A program made the translations under genes and the position numbers. DNA of 21,754 bases from a virus. The stretch is taken from positions 1 through 21,754 of IMG/VR virus record IMGVR_UViG_3300025759_000809; one strand, 5' to 3'. The notes beneath the pieces are model-generated. The model did not search any database. It was not told the DNA's origin and saw only the letters and a program-made list of their open reading frames with translations. This document shows, one piece after another, positions 1 to 17,713 of this stretch; the stretch's first letter is position 1, and every line of letters begins with the position of its first letter.

Positions 1-445
1 CATCGGACGGTTTGAAAACTTCAATTTGGTGTTTCACGGTTGAAATCGCCACGCCGTTTTTTGATTCTGGCGAATAGAGGTCGATTTCCGTTGATTTGTT
101 GTTTTGAACCCTCGCCGAATACGCATCATCTTCAATCTTAACCGTGGCGTGGCGTTCGGTTTCGTTGAATGTGATTGATGGTAAAAAAATCACGCCTTTC
201 AATTCGTATTCCTCAGAACCCGAAAAAACTTTGATTGTCACATCGACCAGGTCACAAGATGACGCCAACGCCTTGTCGTACAAATACGAATATGCGTCAC
301 CGTGCCACACATATTCTTGGCCGTAATCAATCGCCACAATTTGCGATGCGTGGTCGTATGTGATTTCAACGGCGGTGTTTTCCCAATTTTCGGGCGAATC
401 ATATTCGACACCGTCCAAATAAAATTTGATAGGGTTACCAATCAT
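1..445 (-). CDS. Tail protein downstream of tape measure (partial, cut by window edge)
   Basis: An open frame begins with ATG at 445 and runs without a stop to base 1, giving 148 codons before the window ends, so the C-terminus is missing. It begins MIGNPIKFYLDGVEYDSPENW. The visible part is rich in short beta-type stretches, acidic and aromatic residues, with no membrane segment or signal peptide. Its start lies inside the last codons of the tape measure gene (11-base overlap), which indicates translational coupling. In long-tailed phages the gene after the tape measure usually encodes a distal tail or baseplate component, so that is the likely role. This is inference from position. I do not recognise a specific family in the visible residues. 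Confidence 0.75.
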   Translation of the reverse strand, partial: MIGNPIKFYLDGVEYDSPENWENTAVEITYDHASQIVAIDYGQEYVWHGDAYSYLYDKALASSCDLVDVTIKVFSGSEEYELKGVIFLPSITFNETERHATVKIEDDAYSARVQNNKSTEIDLYSPESKNGVAISTVKHQIEVFKPSD

Positions 446-2552
446 TGCGTGACGACTTTTTCATTGATTCGGCGATGCGGTCGGCCATGTACATGAAACC
501 CTCTTTGTTTGATTGTCGCAACCGATCGGTGGCAACCAACAAATTGCGGTCGTTGAACCCTTGCAACTTTGCCGATTCGCCCAACGCCCCGAAACCACCT
601 TTTTGGATGCCATCCAAATCGACCGTTTCGATATTGTATTTTTCCAAAATCTTCATTGATTCTTTGTGCGTGATGATCGGATAACCTCCACCATCATAAA
701 TCAACTCAGGCCCTTCTTCGCCCACCCATTTGAAACCAGACGGTGCGTCTTTCGTTCCTTTCGCAAACGCGGGCAACGGTTCGGATTGAATCAACCCGAC
801 TTGCACGCCACCCATTACGGCGGCGGCGGCGGCCAATCCATACGATGCGGGCGGTGCGTTACTTGCCAACGCTTGCATCACCGCTTGTGCCGTTCCCAAT
901 ATGGCGTTGAACGTTGCCGCATCCTTCGCCGCTTGCGCTTGCTTGCGTTTCAATTCGGCCGATTTCTGGTCAAATTGTTCTTGCGTCAATAACCCTTGTT
1001 CAAATTGTTGTTGCAACAAGGATTGTTCGTGCGCAATTCGCCGTTCGGTTTGCGCAATGACCACGTCCGAAATCATGTACGCCGCATCAATCGCAACGCC
1101 ACGGTATTGGTCAATGTTTGCAATTCGTTGTTGTGTGGCGGCATTATCGGCGGCAATTTGTTCATCGGTGGCCGCCATCATCGCATCAAGTTCAGATTGG
1201 ATCTGCGATTCCGCACCATCGCCGAAAACGCTTTGCAACGCCTCGCCAAGATCGAACACCGCGCCCGTCATGCCCTCGACGTTGTGTTTGGCTTCCTCAT
1301 CAATTTCATCAACAAACGGAACGCCTTTTCCCTTGTCTTTGCCCAGTAACGCATCCAACTTTGCACGCGCATCGACCAACTCTTTGACAATTTGCGTGTT
1401 TCGTTCCAACGTGGTGTTTTGTGCGTTTTGCTCGGTCGTCAATTCTTTGATCAACGCTTTGTAAAATGCAACGTTTCTGATTTGCTCGGCGGTTTGCTCG
1501 TTCTGGTCGGCCGTTGATTTCGTGATTTTGTTGATGTTGTCGATGGTCATTTCATCGATTGGGATTATCGTTTCCCGTTCGGCGCGTAACTTTTCAGCCA
1601 ACGCCAACTTTTCGCGCTCGGTGTTTATTCTTTCTTGCGAAATTTTTACTTGCGCTTCGCTTATTTTCCCAATTCGAGCCGTCAAATCTGCCTCCATTTC
1701 GTCAACAATCGCCTTTTGCGCTTGGATTGATTTGTCTATTTCGCCAACGGTCGCTTTTGATAGTGTTGCCGCAAATCGGTCAACCTCGGTAATTTCATCG
1801 GCGATTGCGGTTACTACGGACGACAAACCCGCCATCATTGGGCCGACCGCCTCATTGATGATTGTACCCAATGCCACCTTCAAATTGTCGGTGGATGCGT
1901 TCAGTCGATCCATCTTGTCCTTAGTTGACAAAACCTCATCACCCATTTTTTGCATTTCCTCGGTGGCAATGTCGCCCACTATTTTGGCCACATCGCCAAC
2001 CTCGGCGGACGCGATTGATATGCCCTCGAAACGTTTGCGCAATTCAATGGCGGAAATGCCAAGATTGTCAAGAATCAACGGCGACTTTCGCCCGATACCC
2101 ATGACGATGGAATTGACCAAGAAATCAACCGATTCGCCCGTTTCTTTTGCTCGGCGGCGGGCAAACTCAAACAACTTTGCAAGTTGCTCCAATGGAATTT
2201 TGAAATTGGACGCACGCACCGCGCCTTTCATCAACTCAAGATCTGACACCGTGCCTTTGGTTGCATCGCGCAAACCTTGCAACAATTTCGGGTCGCCAAT
2301 ACGCTGAAATGCGGTTCGCACGCCCTCAGCTTCAGCCGCAAGTTTGGACGCCTCCGCGCCAAATGCAACGATTCGGTCAACCGCAAACGCGGCCGCAACC
2401 GCCCCGCCGATTTTCTTCAATCCACTTTCAAGACCGCTTGCGCTTTCGTTTACCTTCTCGAAATCCTTTTGTGCAATGCCTGTTGCCTTTTCGATTTCTT
2501 TGATGTAATCCTTTACATCGGCAACGTATTTTGCGACAACTTTATCGGCCAT
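435..2552 (-). CDS. Tail tape measure protein
   Basis: A 705-residue protein, the second longest here, with the usual make-up of a tape measure. A helical, Ala/Lys/Glu-rich N-terminus (about 1-60) leads into a hydrophobic Gly/Ala stretch (KKIGGAVAAAFAV, about 46-58). Long coiled-coil regions follow, including a Gln/Glu-rich helix after a second low-complexity Ala stretch, and the C-terminus contains the common tape measure signature GEEGPELIYDGGG. It would set tail length and occupy the tail tube before DNA ejection. About 700 residues predicts a fairly short siphovirus- or myovirus-type tail (near 100 nm by the usual 0.15 nm per residue; a rough inference). It follows the chaperone-like genes, as expected. 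No lysozyme or peptidase domain is evident. Confidence 0.88.
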   Translation of the reverse strand: MADKVVAKYVADVKDYIKEIEKATGIAQKDFEKVNESASGLESGLKKIGGAVAAAFAVDRIVAFGAEASKLAAEAEGVRTAFQRIGDPKLLQGLRDATKGTVSDLELMKGAVRASNFKIPLEQLAKLFEFARRRAKETGESVDFLVNSIVMGIGRKSPLILDNLGISAIELRKRFEGISIASAEVGDVAKIVGDIATEEMQKMGDEVLSTKDKMDRLNASTDNLKVALGTIINEAVGPMMAGLSSVVTAIADEITEVDRFAATLSKATVGEIDKSIQAQKAIVDEMEADLTARIGKISEAQVKISQERINTEREKLALAEKLRAERETIIPIDEMTIDNINKITKSTADQNEQTAEQIRNVAFYKALIKELTTEQNAQNTTLERNTQIVKELVDARAKLDALLGKDKGKGVPFVDEIDEEAKHNVEGMTGAVFDLGEALQSVFGDGAESQIQSELDAMMAATDEQIAADNAATQQRIANIDQYRGVAIDAAYMISDVVIAQTERRIAHEQSLLQQQFEQGLLTQEQFDQKSAELKRKQAQAAKDAATFNAILGTAQAVMQALASNAPPASYGLAAAAAVMGGVQVGLIQSEPLPAFAKGTKDAPSGFKWVGEEGPELIYDGGGYPIITHKESMKILEKYNIETVDLDGIQKGGFGALGESAKLQGFNDRNLLVATDRLRQSNKEGFMYMADRIAESMKKSSRNDW

Positions 2553-2593: not shown

Positions 2594-2893
2594 CTATTTG
2601 TGCGCGGTCGCGGCTTTCTGTTCGGCCGCCTTGCGTTCGACAAAAATAGTTAATTCAAACAAAAATTCGGATGACGGCATCCGCCAGAACCGTTCAAACG
2701 TGTGGTCGTCACCCGCTATGTATCTGATGAATTTTCGGAACGTGTAACTTTCGTTTCCGATTTCTTGGCGTACCGTGTGCCATTGATAGCTTCGATTCGG
2801 CTTTCGTGTTGTTGCCGTTTGGCTTTGTAATCGTTCTGTAATTTCTCTGCATCCTTTGTGGAAATCTCGAACCGCTTTGATAGTTCCCTCCAT
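2594..2893 (-). CDS. -1 frame extension of the tail assembly chaperone candidate
   Basis: This frame overlaps the 3' third of the upstream 220-residue gene and continues 122 bases past its stop to a stop at 2594. Its first half looks like the off-frame shadow of that gene. The last about 55 residues (from SYTFRKFIRYIAGDD to KAATAHK) look like real protein, with a sensible hydrophobic and charged pattern. The frame is exactly -1 relative to the upstream gene, and that gene carries a T TTT TTT heptamer in the right phase at 2914-2908. The frame is open from there, so a shift would give a fusion of about 261 residues. Position just before the tape measure matches the G/GT arrangement of phage lambda and relatives. 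Independent initiation at the ATG at 2893 is the alternative. Confidence 0.55.
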   Translation of the reverse strand: MEGTIKAVRDFHKGCREITERLQSQTATTRKPNRSYQWHTVRQEIGNESYTFRKFIRYIAGDDHTFERFWRMPSSEFLFELTIFVERKAAEQKAATAHK

Positions 2894-3378
2894 TCCCGTT
2901 GCTTGAAAAAAAAAGATGTGTCGTTGATTTTGGATTCTAGAAAATCCAACTTTTCTTGGTGGACACGCGAATCGTGACCGCTTGCATCTTCATCTTCGCG
3001 CACATACTTCGCGGCCATGATGTTCAGAAACGCATCAATGTTGACACACGACCGTTGAAATTCTTGCAACGATGTCAGTACCGCGCCCGCTTTCAACGTG
3101 TCGCCATGCGCAAGGTATTCCTTGACATCATCAAACGCCTTATTCAAAAGGTCAGGCGTCAACGCCACCGCCAAATATGATGTGTAAGTTTGGATTGCAC
3201 CCATCCGAACCACGGGTATCATGCCATCGGGGTATCGGTAATAGGCCCGACCCTTGTCGTCCATGAACGCCAATTCGAGGTCGTTGCCATTCTCTGGTCG
3301 CGTCAATAGATCATTGGTGAAATCAATGACCGACTTGCGGCCGATCAGTCGTAAAATACTATGAATTAGTTTTTTCAT
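2716..3378 (-). CDS. Putative tail assembly chaperone, zero-frame product
   Basis: A 220-residue soluble protein starting MKKLIHSILRLIGRK. The first about 150 residues look globular. After the Phe run at 156-158 the rest is a charged, helical, Lys/Arg/Glu-rich tail ending ENSSDT. It overlaps the preceding small gene by 20 bases and lies directly before the tape measure with an overlapping -1 frame, the classic place for a tail assembly chaperone that binds the tape measure while the tube polymerises. I do not recognise the family by sequence; the call comes from gene order and the slippery site. A tail-completion or tube-associated role is possible instead. Confidence 0.7.
   Translation of the reverse strand: MKKLIHSILRLIGRKSVIDFTNDLLTRPENGNDLELAFMDDKGRAYYRYPDGMIPVVRMGAIQTYTSYLAVALTPDLLNKAFDDVKEYLAHGDTLKAGAVLTSLQEFQRSCVNIDAFLNIMAAKYVREDEDASGHDSRVHQEKLDFLESKINDTSFFFKQREWRELSKRFEISTKDAEKLQNDYKAKRQQHESRIEAINGTRYAKKSETKVTRSENSSDT
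2906..2914 (-). promoter_or_regulatory. Candidate programmed -1 frameshift site (T9)
   Basis: Nine T residues on the minus strand, phased as TCT TTT TTT TTC in the 220-residue gene, form a perfect X XXY YYZ slippery heptamer. A 7-bp hairpin (TTGGATT, loop TTCTAG, AATCCAA; 2949-2930) lies 15 bases upstream. I did not find a convincing downstream pseudoknot. A homopolymer sequencing error is the competing explanation. Confidence 0.5.
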
Positions 3379-3562
3379 TTTGCCCCGTCTTTGGTGTTCT
3401 CAGCACCTCATAAAATTGCGGAATCTTTCGACCCGTGGTCGGGTCAGTTTTGAAACCGCATTGAAACCACTTTCGTCCTTTGATGTATGCCCGCAAATGT
3501 CGCTTTTCAAATTGTTCTTCGGCCGTGTTGATGAACCCCGAAAGTTTGCCGCCAAACCCCAT
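3359..3562 (-). CDS. Small basic phage protein of the tail region
   Basis: A 67-residue protein, MGFGGKLSGFINTAEEQFEKR onward. The start at 3562 is chosen because its ATG shares one base with the stop of the preceding gene (TAATG); the same frame is open further upstream but is only a shadow of the neighbour there. It is rich in Lys/Arg, with aromatic residues in the middle (RKWFQCGFKTD), and resembles short phage proteins that sit between tail tube and chaperone genes. I do not recognise a family. Its end overlaps the next gene by 20 bases, so it belongs to the same transcript. Confidence 0.6.
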   Translation of the reverse strand: MGFGGKLSGFINTAEEQFEKRHLRAYIKGRKWFQCGFKTDPTTGRKIPQFYEVLRTPKTGQNEKTNS

Positions 3563-3900
3563 TAAACTTTGTCGAATAGTCGTTTGATAATCGTGGCGAA
3601 CAACGCAACCATCGCAATTGTCGGCACATACCACGCGACCAGATCCCACGAATGGTAATTCAATGGCGCAAGACAAACGTAAAAGAACGAACCCCACACG
3701 GACGACATACACGTCACGCAATAAAAGGTCGGCTTTGCAAGATGTGTTTGCCACGTCTTGCGGAACACGCCATCGCGCAACGCTTCGTGGGTTTCATCGT
3801 ACCACTCGGCGGATGACCACCCCGTGTAATGTTGCAACAATTCATCAATGACCAGGTGAACACCAACAATTGCCAACGCTATTGTGACCGCCAGAATCAT
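3562..3900 (-). CDS. Integral membrane protein with C-x2-C motif
   Basis: A 112-residue protein with three likely membrane segments: residues about 1-18 (MILAVTIALAIVGVHLVI), about 69-85 around SSVWGSFFYVCLAPL, and about 90-105 (LVAWYVPTIAMVALFATI). A conserved-looking KPTFYCVTCMSSVWG lies before the second segment; a CxxC followed by a Trp-containing segment recalls DUF1360-like small membrane proteins, though this is only a resemblance. The start at 3900 overlaps the previous stop as ATGA. It is unusual to find such a protein between virion genes; a role in superinfection exclusion or host membrane modification is possible but not shown. Confidence 0.65.
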   Translation of the reverse strand: MILAVTIALAIVGVHLVIDELLQHYTGWSSAEWYDETHEALRDGVFRKTWQTHLAKPTFYCVTCMSSVWGSFFYVCLAPLNYHSWDLVAWYVPTIAMVALFATIIKRLFDKV

Positions 3901-4271
3901 ACTTTGACCAACGTTTGGTCGGTGACCGTTTCGCGTGCGCCCGCTGAATCGTAAACCGCACGCGGTGTGAATGTGCCGCAACTCATTGTCGTGGTCGCAT
4001 CCAACAACGTGATGGTGATGGTGTCATCAATTGATTGGGCGGTTGCCAATGTTGCCCAAACTTTGAACGCGACGTTGGGCAACCAATCGAAACCGCTAAT
4101 GTCAAACCGACCCGCGCCCGTTGATGTGCGGTCGAACACGGTCATTTTTCCCGTGGCCATATTTTGCGCGTACACTTTCAAATCGGTTGAAAGATGGGTG
4201 GTTGTTCCGATGTTCAGATTCGTTAAACACGCAACCACGGGTTGCAACGCTTGGCAAGATTCACAACTCAT
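3897..4271 (-). CDS. Hypothetical virion or tail protein
   Basis: A 124-residue protein beginning MSCESCQALQPVVACL, with a Cys-rich N-terminus followed by alternating beta-type sequence rich in Thr, Val and Gly (TITITLLDATTTMSCGTFTPRAV). No signal peptide or membrane segment. The beta-rich composition and its place ahead of the tail genes suggest a structural protein, perhaps a tail tube or head-tail protein, but I recognise no family. It overlaps the small-terminase-like gene by four bases (ATGA) and its own stop overlaps the next start the same way. Confidence 0.6.
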   Translation of the reverse strand: MSCESCQALQPVVACLTNLNIGTTTHLSTDLKVYAQNMATGKMTVFDRTSTGAGRFDISGFDWLPNVAFKVWATLATAQSIDDTITITLLDATTTMSCGTFTPRAVYDSAGARETVTDQTLVKV

Positions 4272-15256: not shown

Positions 15257-17713
15257 TTACGTTGTAACCGTCCATCCTTTATTGGTGGCGATTAAAAGGT
15301 CGGCGGCGGTTAGGTCGCCCGTGCCTGGATTGTCGGTGACGGTAATCGTTGCGGATGCGTTGGCGAGGTCGTTGAAAATTTGCACCAACCCTTCACGCGA
15401 AAAATTACAATCTTCGATGCTGAACGAAACGGCCAAATCAGAAATGCGCAACCATTGCAATGAATAGCAATATTGAAATGCGCCCGTCATGTTGGCGATG
15501 TTCGTGCCATCAATTCCCGAAATGACTTTCACGCCGCTTGAAAATCTGAATGCTTGTTGCAAGGATTGTGGCGCGGTTGTGGCCTCATCAAAATACCCTT
15601 GCACCAAGTTCAGCGCATTATAAAACATTCGGTACATATCCGAACCGCTACTCAACGAACTTAATTGCATCGGATTGTCAGGCGTGCCGAAAACCTCAAT
15701 TAATGAACCATTGAACGTGCTGCCCAGATATGTAAACCCAGAAAAGTAATCGACCACATCCGCCGAATCAAAATCGACATTTGACGTACTCATCATCGAC
15801 AACCCTGTTGTTATTCCGCTTGATGACATCGACATATCGTTGACCTCAATACCCTTGCTAATTCCAAAAAATGTATTTGACGCCGTAGTCACATTTTCAA
15901 AATTGCCCGTCACTTTTCCCAACAAATCGCAATCGTAAAATGTGTGGTTTAAGTTGGTGACGTTGCACGTTCCGAAAAACTCAAACTCTTGCAACATTCG
16001 ATGATATTGGCGAGAATTTGAACCGCGAAAACAATTCACCAATGATGTGATTGTCTGGCTTGTGATTTTAACGGCCAACACATTGGAATTTTGGTAATTG
16101 CTGACGCCCGTGGGTTTTCGGTACATATCCCAACCCGTCAAATTTCCCGTCACTTTGGTAATGACTTGTTTGTAGGCGTACTTAGAAATCTCGCCCGTGC
16201 CTTTGGTGTAATCCAAATCGAAATTTGATTGCGCGCCCGATGCGTGGTTGGTGACCGTTGTGCCGTCATTGTAAAGGTCAACCGTGTAATTAGCCGCCGA
16301 TGTGGTGGCATACATTGCCATGAAATTCGGTTGATTCTCGCGAACGGCTGACAAAATGTATATGATGTTGTCGCCGTCCGATGTGGTCGGCATATCTAAC
16401 CAGTCAGGGTTGCGCACCCACGCCCGCGATGTGCATGGTGTACACGCGGAGGCCGTGAACATGAAACCATCGGTGTTTGGTTTGTAATCGGCCAAAACGG
16501 TGGTTGAACCGTCCGAATCCAACATCTTGGCTTGTGCCAAACTGAATGTTTGTTCGGGTTGAATGTTTTGCGACCAAGTCGGTGACGATGCATCGTTGTT
16601 CACCACGCAATCCGCAACAATTGACGGGTTGGCGGATGTTCCCACCGATGCGCCCGCATCATCTTGGATTAATTGATAAAATGTGCCACCGCTTGCAACC
16701 GTGCCAACCGACACGCCGTTGACCTCCACCGTTGCATCGGCACACGGCGGGCAACTTGTGGCCGTAAACATAAACCCTTGCGATTGTGGTATGTAATCGG
16801 CGGTGACCGTTGACCCGTCCGAATCTTGCATTTTGGCTTGCGCCAACGTCATTGTTGCCTCAGCTTTGACCGTGTCCGACCATGTTGGCGTGGCGTTGTT
16901 CCGCACCGTTGAATCAGCAATCACCCAATCGCCCGCCGCCGATGTGCCGACCGCATCATCGTCAGAATTGACAACGTCCAAATCGTATGTGTCGCCCGAT
17001 GGAATTGTGGCAAATGGCGCGCCGTTGATGTCCAACGTTGCCGCCTCCGCATCCCCGCAAATTTTGTTTTGCAAGCACGTTTTTTGGGTCGGCGTCAAAC
17101 GGTCAACCACCACTTGTTTGCAAAAATCAAAACCGTGCAAAATGTCGGTGTCGGTTGGGCAAGCATCCATGCAATCGGATGTGCCGACAACCATTACATC
17201 AACTTCCACGGCAACCGCCGACCATTTGAACGGAACGTCAGGTGCGAACGGTGGGTCGAACTCATCGGCCAGAACATCGGCCGAATTGGTCGTTGAACCC
17301 GTGACAATGCATTCAACTTTTCGCGCTTTCAACGTTGCTTTCAACGTTTCATTGACGAACGTGATTTGTTTTTTAATCACATCGACCAAACGGTCGGCCG
17401 TGTAATTATCATCCGCGCCAACATCGCCACGGCGTTTGAACGCCACCAAACGCAACGGGAACGTGGTTTCATACAACACATCGGTGGTAAATGGGTTGTC
17501 AACCTTTGACGACGAGACATCGCCAGATTTTCGCCAATATGTGACCCCATCGTGTTGGTCGATTTCGATTTTTTGCCAATCGCCGTTGGCCGAATAACAA
17601 ACGGGGAATGTGTTTTCGCCCTCCGATTTGATTTCGGTCAAACAATAACGTTTGTCGAAATAACCGATCAACGCAAGTTTGGCGTTCAAATAATCAATAA
17701 TGCTTTCAATCAT
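15257..17713 (-). CDS. Large fibre/adhesin with duplicated modules and surface-repeat C-terminus
   Basis: An 818-residue protein, the largest here. Residues 1-215 form an N-terminal domain (MIESIIDYLNAKLALIGYFD) that probably attaches to the virion. Two homologous modules follow at about 224-322 and 326-424; each contains a (V/I)NG strand, LAQAKM(L/Q)DSDGST and GFMFTA(T/S)(S/A)C, and they share CPPC/CTPC Cys pairs. The C-terminal half (about 430-818) has irregular repeats with NLTGWDMYR, NHTFYDCDLL, MYRMFYNALNLV and MTGAFQYCYSL, like BspA/DUF285-type leucine-rich surface repeats, and ends with NPGTGDLTAADLLIATNKGW. It is likely the receptor-binding fibre. It overlaps the previous gene by ATGA. 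Confidence 0.75.
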   Translation of the reverse strand: MIESIIDYLNAKLALIGYFDKRYCLTEIKSEGENTFPVCYSANGDWQKIEIDQHDGVTYWRKSGDVSSSKVDNPFTTDVLYETTFPLRLVAFKRRGDVGADDNYTADRLVDVIKKQITFVNETLKATLKARKVECIVTGSTTNSADVLADEFDPPFAPDVPFKWSAVAVEVDVMVVGTSDCMDACPTDTDILHGFDFCKQVVVDRLTPTQKTCLQNKICGDAEAATLDINGAPFATIPSGDTYDLDVVNSDDDAVGTSAAGDWVIADSTVRNNATPTWSDTVKAEATMTLAQAKMQDSDGSTVTADYIPQSQGFMFTATSCPPCADATVEVNGVSVGTVASGGTFYQLIQDDAGASVGTSANPSIVADCVVNNDASSPTWSQNIQPEQTFSLAQAKMLDSDGSTTVLADYKPNTDGFMFTASACTPCTSRAWVRNPDWLDMPTTSDGDNIIYILSAVRENQPNFMAMYATTSAANYTVDLYNDGTTVTNHASGAQSNFDLDYTKGTGEISKYAYKQVITKVTGNLTGWDMYRKPTGVSNYQNSNVLAVKITSQTITSLVNCFRGSNSRQYHRMLQEFEFFGTCNVTNLNHTFYDCDLLGKVTGNFENVTTASNTFFGISKGIEVNDMSMSSSGITTGLSMMSTSNVDFDSADVVDYFSGFTYLGSTFNGSLIEVFGTPDNPMQLSSLSSGSDMYRMFYNALNLVQGYFDEATTAPQSLQQAFRFSSGVKVISGIDGTNIANMTGAFQYCYSLQWLRISDLAVSFSIEDCNFSREGLVQIFNDLANASATITVTDNPGTGDLTAADLLIATNKGWTVTT

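Follow-up and report, generated by a model that had tools for sequence, protein, structure and literature searches.

Introduction

In phage lambda, the gene before the tape measure gene possesses a -1 slippery heptamer. Its two products, gpG and gpGT, have a common N-terminus, and the extension ends near the start of the tape measure gene. Genes of this type are expected to yield both products, with an excess of the short one. The shared part binds the tape measure protein and the T domain recruits the tube subunit (PMC5009743). The E/E+E' frameshift of phage P2 is a known case on a U-run (PMC3091744). Furthermore, ORF43/ORF44 of TP901-1 and gp13/gp14 of HK97 are two-frame chaperone pairs adjoining the tape measure gene.

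We analyzed a stretch of viral DNA of 21,754 bases (hereafter called the window), an IMG/VR virus record derived from a metagenome assembly. A first-pass annotation had proposed that the gene before the tape measure gene is G/GT-like, in that a -1 slippery site leads to an extended C-terminus. This proposal is supported by conservation in homologues, and the identity as a chaperone is drawn by analogy. Our main reading, to which we give a probability of about 0.82, is that the gene is of the tail-assembly-chaperone type and that its two forms would be made from one start by programmed -1 ribosomal frameshifting. We also think it probable, with somewhat less confidence, that the gene represents an undescribed chaperone family, probably of Bacteroidota phages, in which a mid-gene -1 shift swaps selected C-terminal modules, 40-62 codons are dual-coding and a strong stem is present in one lineage.

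Results

Gene layout in the window

The features are listed in Table 1. The coordinates of the ORF, the T run, the -1 stop and the 261-residue fusion in the first-pass annotation were all correct on recomputation. Codons 155-158 of the ORF are TCT TTT TTT TTC, and the -1 frame, already open ahead of the T run, continues to its stop. The frame-shifted product would consist of 157 zero-frame codons and 104 codons from the -1 frame. Its junction peptide lies around NDTSFFFQATGMEGTIK, and the zero-frame counterpart lies around FFFKQREWR. The tape measure gene was identified by matches to PHROG tail length tape measure families (E 6e-14 and 4e-8), and it also matches annotated tape measure genes by tblastn.

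Table 1. Positions of the features in the window
Feature	Position	Strand	Details
Putative tail assembly chaperone, zero-frame ORF	2716..3378	-	220 aa; ATG 3378, TAG 2718-2716
T9 slippery run	2906..2914	-	codons 156-158; in-phase heptamers T_TTT_TTT and T_TTT_TTC
-1 frame C-terminal extension	2594..2908	-	104 aa after the slip; TAG 2596-2594
Dual-coded overlap of the zero and -1 frames	2719..2905	-	62 codons
Tail tape measure gene	435..2552	-	705 aa; next gene downstream of the chaperone-type gene
7-bp hairpin TTGGATT/AATCCAA	2930..2949	-	upstream of the T run; lacks conservation and support for a role
Conserved small membrane protein (CxxC and SxWG motifs)	3562..3900	-	upstream neighbor; start inferred at 3900; equivalents in relatives

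Two kinds of small protein genes recur upstream of the chaperone-type gene. One encodes a small membrane protein with the motif CxxC...S.WG and is present in the window and at 4500-4838 in L005, 3178-3594 in L003 and 4465-4791 in L006. A protein of 124-144 aa with a conserved N-terminal Cys motif (MSCESCQALQPVVAC-like) is encoded two to three genes upstream (window 3897-4271, L005 4129-4503, L010 2943-3344 and L026 3447-3881); no family match was found for the window copy. Elsewhere in the window, a protein of 818 aa is encoded at 15257-17713. It contains internal repeats (NGAPFATIPSGDTYDL / NGVSVGTVASGGTFYQL), and the region after them looks by eye like BspA-type leucine-rich repeats. The protein is possibly a receptor-binding or tail fibre protein.

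Homologues of the putative chaperone gene

With the window protein as the only query, neither viral contigs nor annotated phages yielded a relative. A distant match of the tape measure protein led to the locus L003, which carries a 218-aa gene in the equivalent position. Profiles built from the window and L003 pair, and later from more members, detected 19 viral loci (L007 among these is the contig of L003). Further profile searches added one Cytophagales MAG contig and seven more lineages, giving 28 loci with the window. The 27 viral or prophage-like relatives fall into about 14 lineages, with identity down to 20-25% in the profile searches. L005, the closest relative compared, is 65% identical to the window protein, whereas the more distant lineages show only 20-50% identity. 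One further contig, L002 (IMGVR_UViG_3300025769_002300), is 97.9% identical, and its end lies at position 2659 of the window, slightly inside the -1-only tail. Because this contig stops short of the T run, it cannot confirm the T count.

Other searches gave no additional members. When the window protein and three relatives were used as tblastn queries against annotated phages, no match was obtained. A DNA pattern search of viral contigs for the slip site with a variable T count also detected nothing. Among 395 sampled genomes from the phylum to which the Cytophagales MAG belongs, we found just that MAG locus and a single marginal match. The hit to L004 proved misleading, since a short tape measure peptide matched within a helicase-like ORF. 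Since one homologue contig is binned as Cytophagales and Flavobacterium and Porphyromonas phages are among the tape measure matches, the hosts are likely Bacteroidota.

Slip site and -1 frame across the relatives

Conservation of the slip site: T_TTT_TTY was found in phase at the equivalent codon in 27 of the 28 loci, the window counted. The run is T6C, T7, T8, T9 or T10, and it starts in phase 0 or 2, with the slippery phase kept in all of these. Thus, a heptamer of the form X_XXY_YYZ in the zero phase is conserved. The sole exception is L013, which possesses only C_CTT_TTT (CC TTTTT A, L013 607-625) and retains the -1 frame and the stem described below. L013 may use C_CTT_TTT, or its sequence may have changed.

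Conservation of the -1 frame: At no untruncated locus does a stop interrupt the -1 frame in the overlap of 40-62 codons, and the frame runs on for 36-75 codons past the zero-frame stop, where it reaches the start of the tape measure gene. The slippery site thus gives access to a conserved alternative frame that ends near the tape measure start. The -1 C-termini align between lineages. A long tape-measure-like ORF directly follows the gene in all 13 relatives tabulated; in L006 it starts inside the -1 ORF. In the +1 frame, 2-7 stops were present in the overlap in all tested loci except the window. The window differs in that its +1 frame is likewise without a stop at 2719-2905, so that three frames are open there.

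Long T runs are classic error sites, and the contig is a metagenome assembly. The first-pass annotation had considered that a homopolymer error might divide one real gene; a frameshifted pseudogene would give the same picture. This explanation is ruled out by the homologues, in which the same two-frame relation is kept in 27 of the 28 loci despite the differing run lengths. There is no locus with a single continuous frame among the 28, and both frames are selected as shown below. We put its probability at practically nil. As far as sequence can tell, the results strongly support programmed -1 frameshifting. The phase of the T run and both C-termini, whose conservation had been named as the check to make, are thus retained in the relatives.

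The -1 ORF might instead be a separate overlapping gene that is translated from an internal start with no frameshift. The window possesses an ATG at 2893, five codons into the -1 ORF, which would suit this idea. However, the position of the start codon varies between loci: the distance to the first ATG, GTG or TTG of the -1 ORF ranges from 4 to 59 codons, and several loci have none ahead of the zero-frame stop. Furthermore, the -1 residues directly after the run are conserved, and so is the run itself, although the window genes use the synonymous TTC as often as TTT (121 versus 116). An internal start is therefore very improbable.

Chance and selection on the two frames

In the chance test, the zero-frame protein was fixed, synonymous codons were resampled, and the openness of the -1 frame was scored. 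For the window, the -1 frame stayed open in 0.2% of the trials. The log10 probabilities of 20 representative loci add up to -37; as the loci are related, this value overstates their independence and is not a joint probability.

Divergence between the window and L005 was then compared by codon position. At zero-frame positions 1/2/3, it was.28/.12/.70 upstream of the run and.29/.36/.37 in the overlap; in the tail past the zero-frame stop, it was.22/.22/.70 at -1 frame positions 1/2/3. The values for the T7 clade (L010-L024, with L013 included) were.17/.08/.47 upstream,.13/.27/.27 in the overlap and.25/.16/.55 in the tail. The zero-frame third positions are constrained about two-fold in the overlap (.37 versus.70 upstream for window and L005;.27 versus.47 in the T7 clade). 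The -1 third positions are also constrained about two-fold in comparison with the -1-only tail (.36 versus.70;.27 versus.55 in the T7 clade). The shift in the substitution pattern begins at the T run. Because the third positions of both frames are restrained in this way, the substitution pattern indicates that both frames of the overlap, and hence both proteins, are under selection.

With the exception of the most distant pair tested, conservation of the -1 frame was above the level forced by the zero-frame protein and above that of the +1 control; the alignments of distant pairs in this test followed the zero frame, which puts the -1 frame at a disadvantage. For the zero frame in close pairs, resampling did not beat the +1 relatedness control, and the selection on the zero frame is read from the codon-position pattern. 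A codon-usage scan of the window alone had placed the switch near 2750, as a shift at the end of the gene. This placement was rejected, since the homologues show dual coding at 2905-2719 and a switch at the T run.

Stimulatory structures and the mode of slippage

Programmed -1 frameshift sites often, though not always, have a stimulatory structure within a few nucleotides on the downstream side. The T7 clade possesses a stem of 10-13 bp, CTCCCGAATTGAG with CTCRATTCGGGAG, which starts 4-6 nt past the run. Its folding energy is -26 to -35 kcal/mol with z of -2.6 to -5.2 (for example, L010 4319-4401). No covariation signal was detected for this stem in column shuffles, and its arms hardly vary; it is supported by its folding energy, by its position and by one-sided G-U changes. 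In the window and the other lineages, no equivalent of the stem was found, and the best helix in the window has P = 0.73. The downstream fold of the window has z of -2.1 and is not shared by L005. The 7-bp hairpin pointed out just upstream of the run is present; however, a role for it was not borne out, as its local fold has z = -1.45 and by eye it is not retained in L005. A rule by which T7 lineages need a stem, and T9 lineages for this reason lack one, does not hold, because L061 has T7 and no stem.

These structures and the run lengths bear on the possibility that RNA polymerase slips on the nine-T run and that one extra U in some of the mRNA yields both products. Runs of T9 and T10 are long enough for transcriptional slippage. 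The T9/T10 lineages, including the window, are also without a significant downstream stem, as this possibility would allow. In contrast, L067, L061 and L010-L024 use T6C or T7, which is short for the polymerase and keeps the exact phase of the ribosomal heptamer for tandem tRNA slippage. Moreover, the stem of the T7 clade is of the classic ribosomal stimulatory kind. We consider polymerase slippage quite unlikely.

Identity of the protein

No family match above background was obtained for the protein in Pfam, PHROGs, PDB sequence, Foldseek PDB/BFVD or VIA-align. The predicted models are mainly helical, with pLDDT of 72 for the short form and 78 for the -1 domain; Foldseek was run on the model with pLDDT 72, and a missing match there does not exclude a shared fold. 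Because there was no sequence or fold match, we infer the tail-assembly-chaperone-type function from position and architecture.

The frameshift may be real and the protein not a tail assembly chaperone, with some other virion or morphogenesis role. The missing family and fold matches are compatible with such a role, and so is the upstream region: no major tail (tube) protein was recognized by sequence directly upstream, where small CxxC proteins are encoded, and in several relatives a terminase-like gene is present there and not a tube gene. Against this, the place before the tape measure gene, the -1 frameshift and the two C-termini are together characteristic of G/GT-type genes. A role other than that of a chaperone is in our judgment unlikely.

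Discussion

Based on the comparison of the homologues, we conclude that the case is real, conserved and in outline well explained, and that it is a known phage trick in an unusual layout. For programmed -1 ribosomal frameshifting, the following scheme is proposed. Most ribosomes would presumably stay in the zero frame across the T run and produce the 220-aa protein. A minority would slip one base back on T_TTT_TTT/C, with tRNA-Phe re-pairing on UUU, and produce the 261-aa protein. The two forms would have 157 residues in common, and about 63 zero-frame residues, a C-terminal helix, would be replaced by 104 -1-frame residues, for which four helices are predicted. If the roles are as in lambda gpG/gpGT, binding to the tape measure protein would fall to the common part, and the -1 domain would bring in the tail-tube subunit. 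We infer the slippage itself, the ratio of the products and the ribosomal as opposed to transcriptional mode.

With this gene, the frameshifted tail chaperones gain an unannotated family, in which the shift is not confined to the end of the first ORF. The conserved dual-coded stretch implies that the short form's own C-terminus matters, for which the gpG-plus-T model has no need. Gene callers and tools that look for a shift at the end of a gene could overlook such cases. In addition, the family offers a natural comparison of run lengths from T6C to T10, with and without a stem.

The layout was compared with those of the known systems. In lambda, slippage occurs on GGGAAAG five codons before the end of G, and gpGT is essentially gpG plus the T domain. 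In the window, the slip occurs on T_TTT_TTT/C, 62-63 codons before the stop, and another sequence takes the place of the zero-frame tail; similarity in sequence to the lambda proteins was not found. P2 E/E+E' and the P2-like Burkholderia phages are alike in the U-run site (TTTTTTG), the -1 shift and the tape measure gene T next downstream. However, the P2 slip lies six codons before the stop of E, E is 91 aa, and homology is not detectable. TP901-1 uses GGGAAAG eight codons before the stop, and in HK97 at most 16 codons of -1 overlap are possible. A tube gene lies directly upstream in lambda, HK97 and P2, whereas in the window none was recognized there by sequence. The genes before the tape measure gene of Flavobacterium phage morran showed no comparable -1 arrangement. 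The slip usually lies near the 3' end of the first ORF, which is not strictly a defining feature, and the family departs from this: the overlap is 40-62 codons here, in contrast to 5, 6 and 8 in lambda, P2 and TP901-1. Thus, the mid-gene slip position, already thought unusual from the window alone, is unusual in comparison with all three of these phages.
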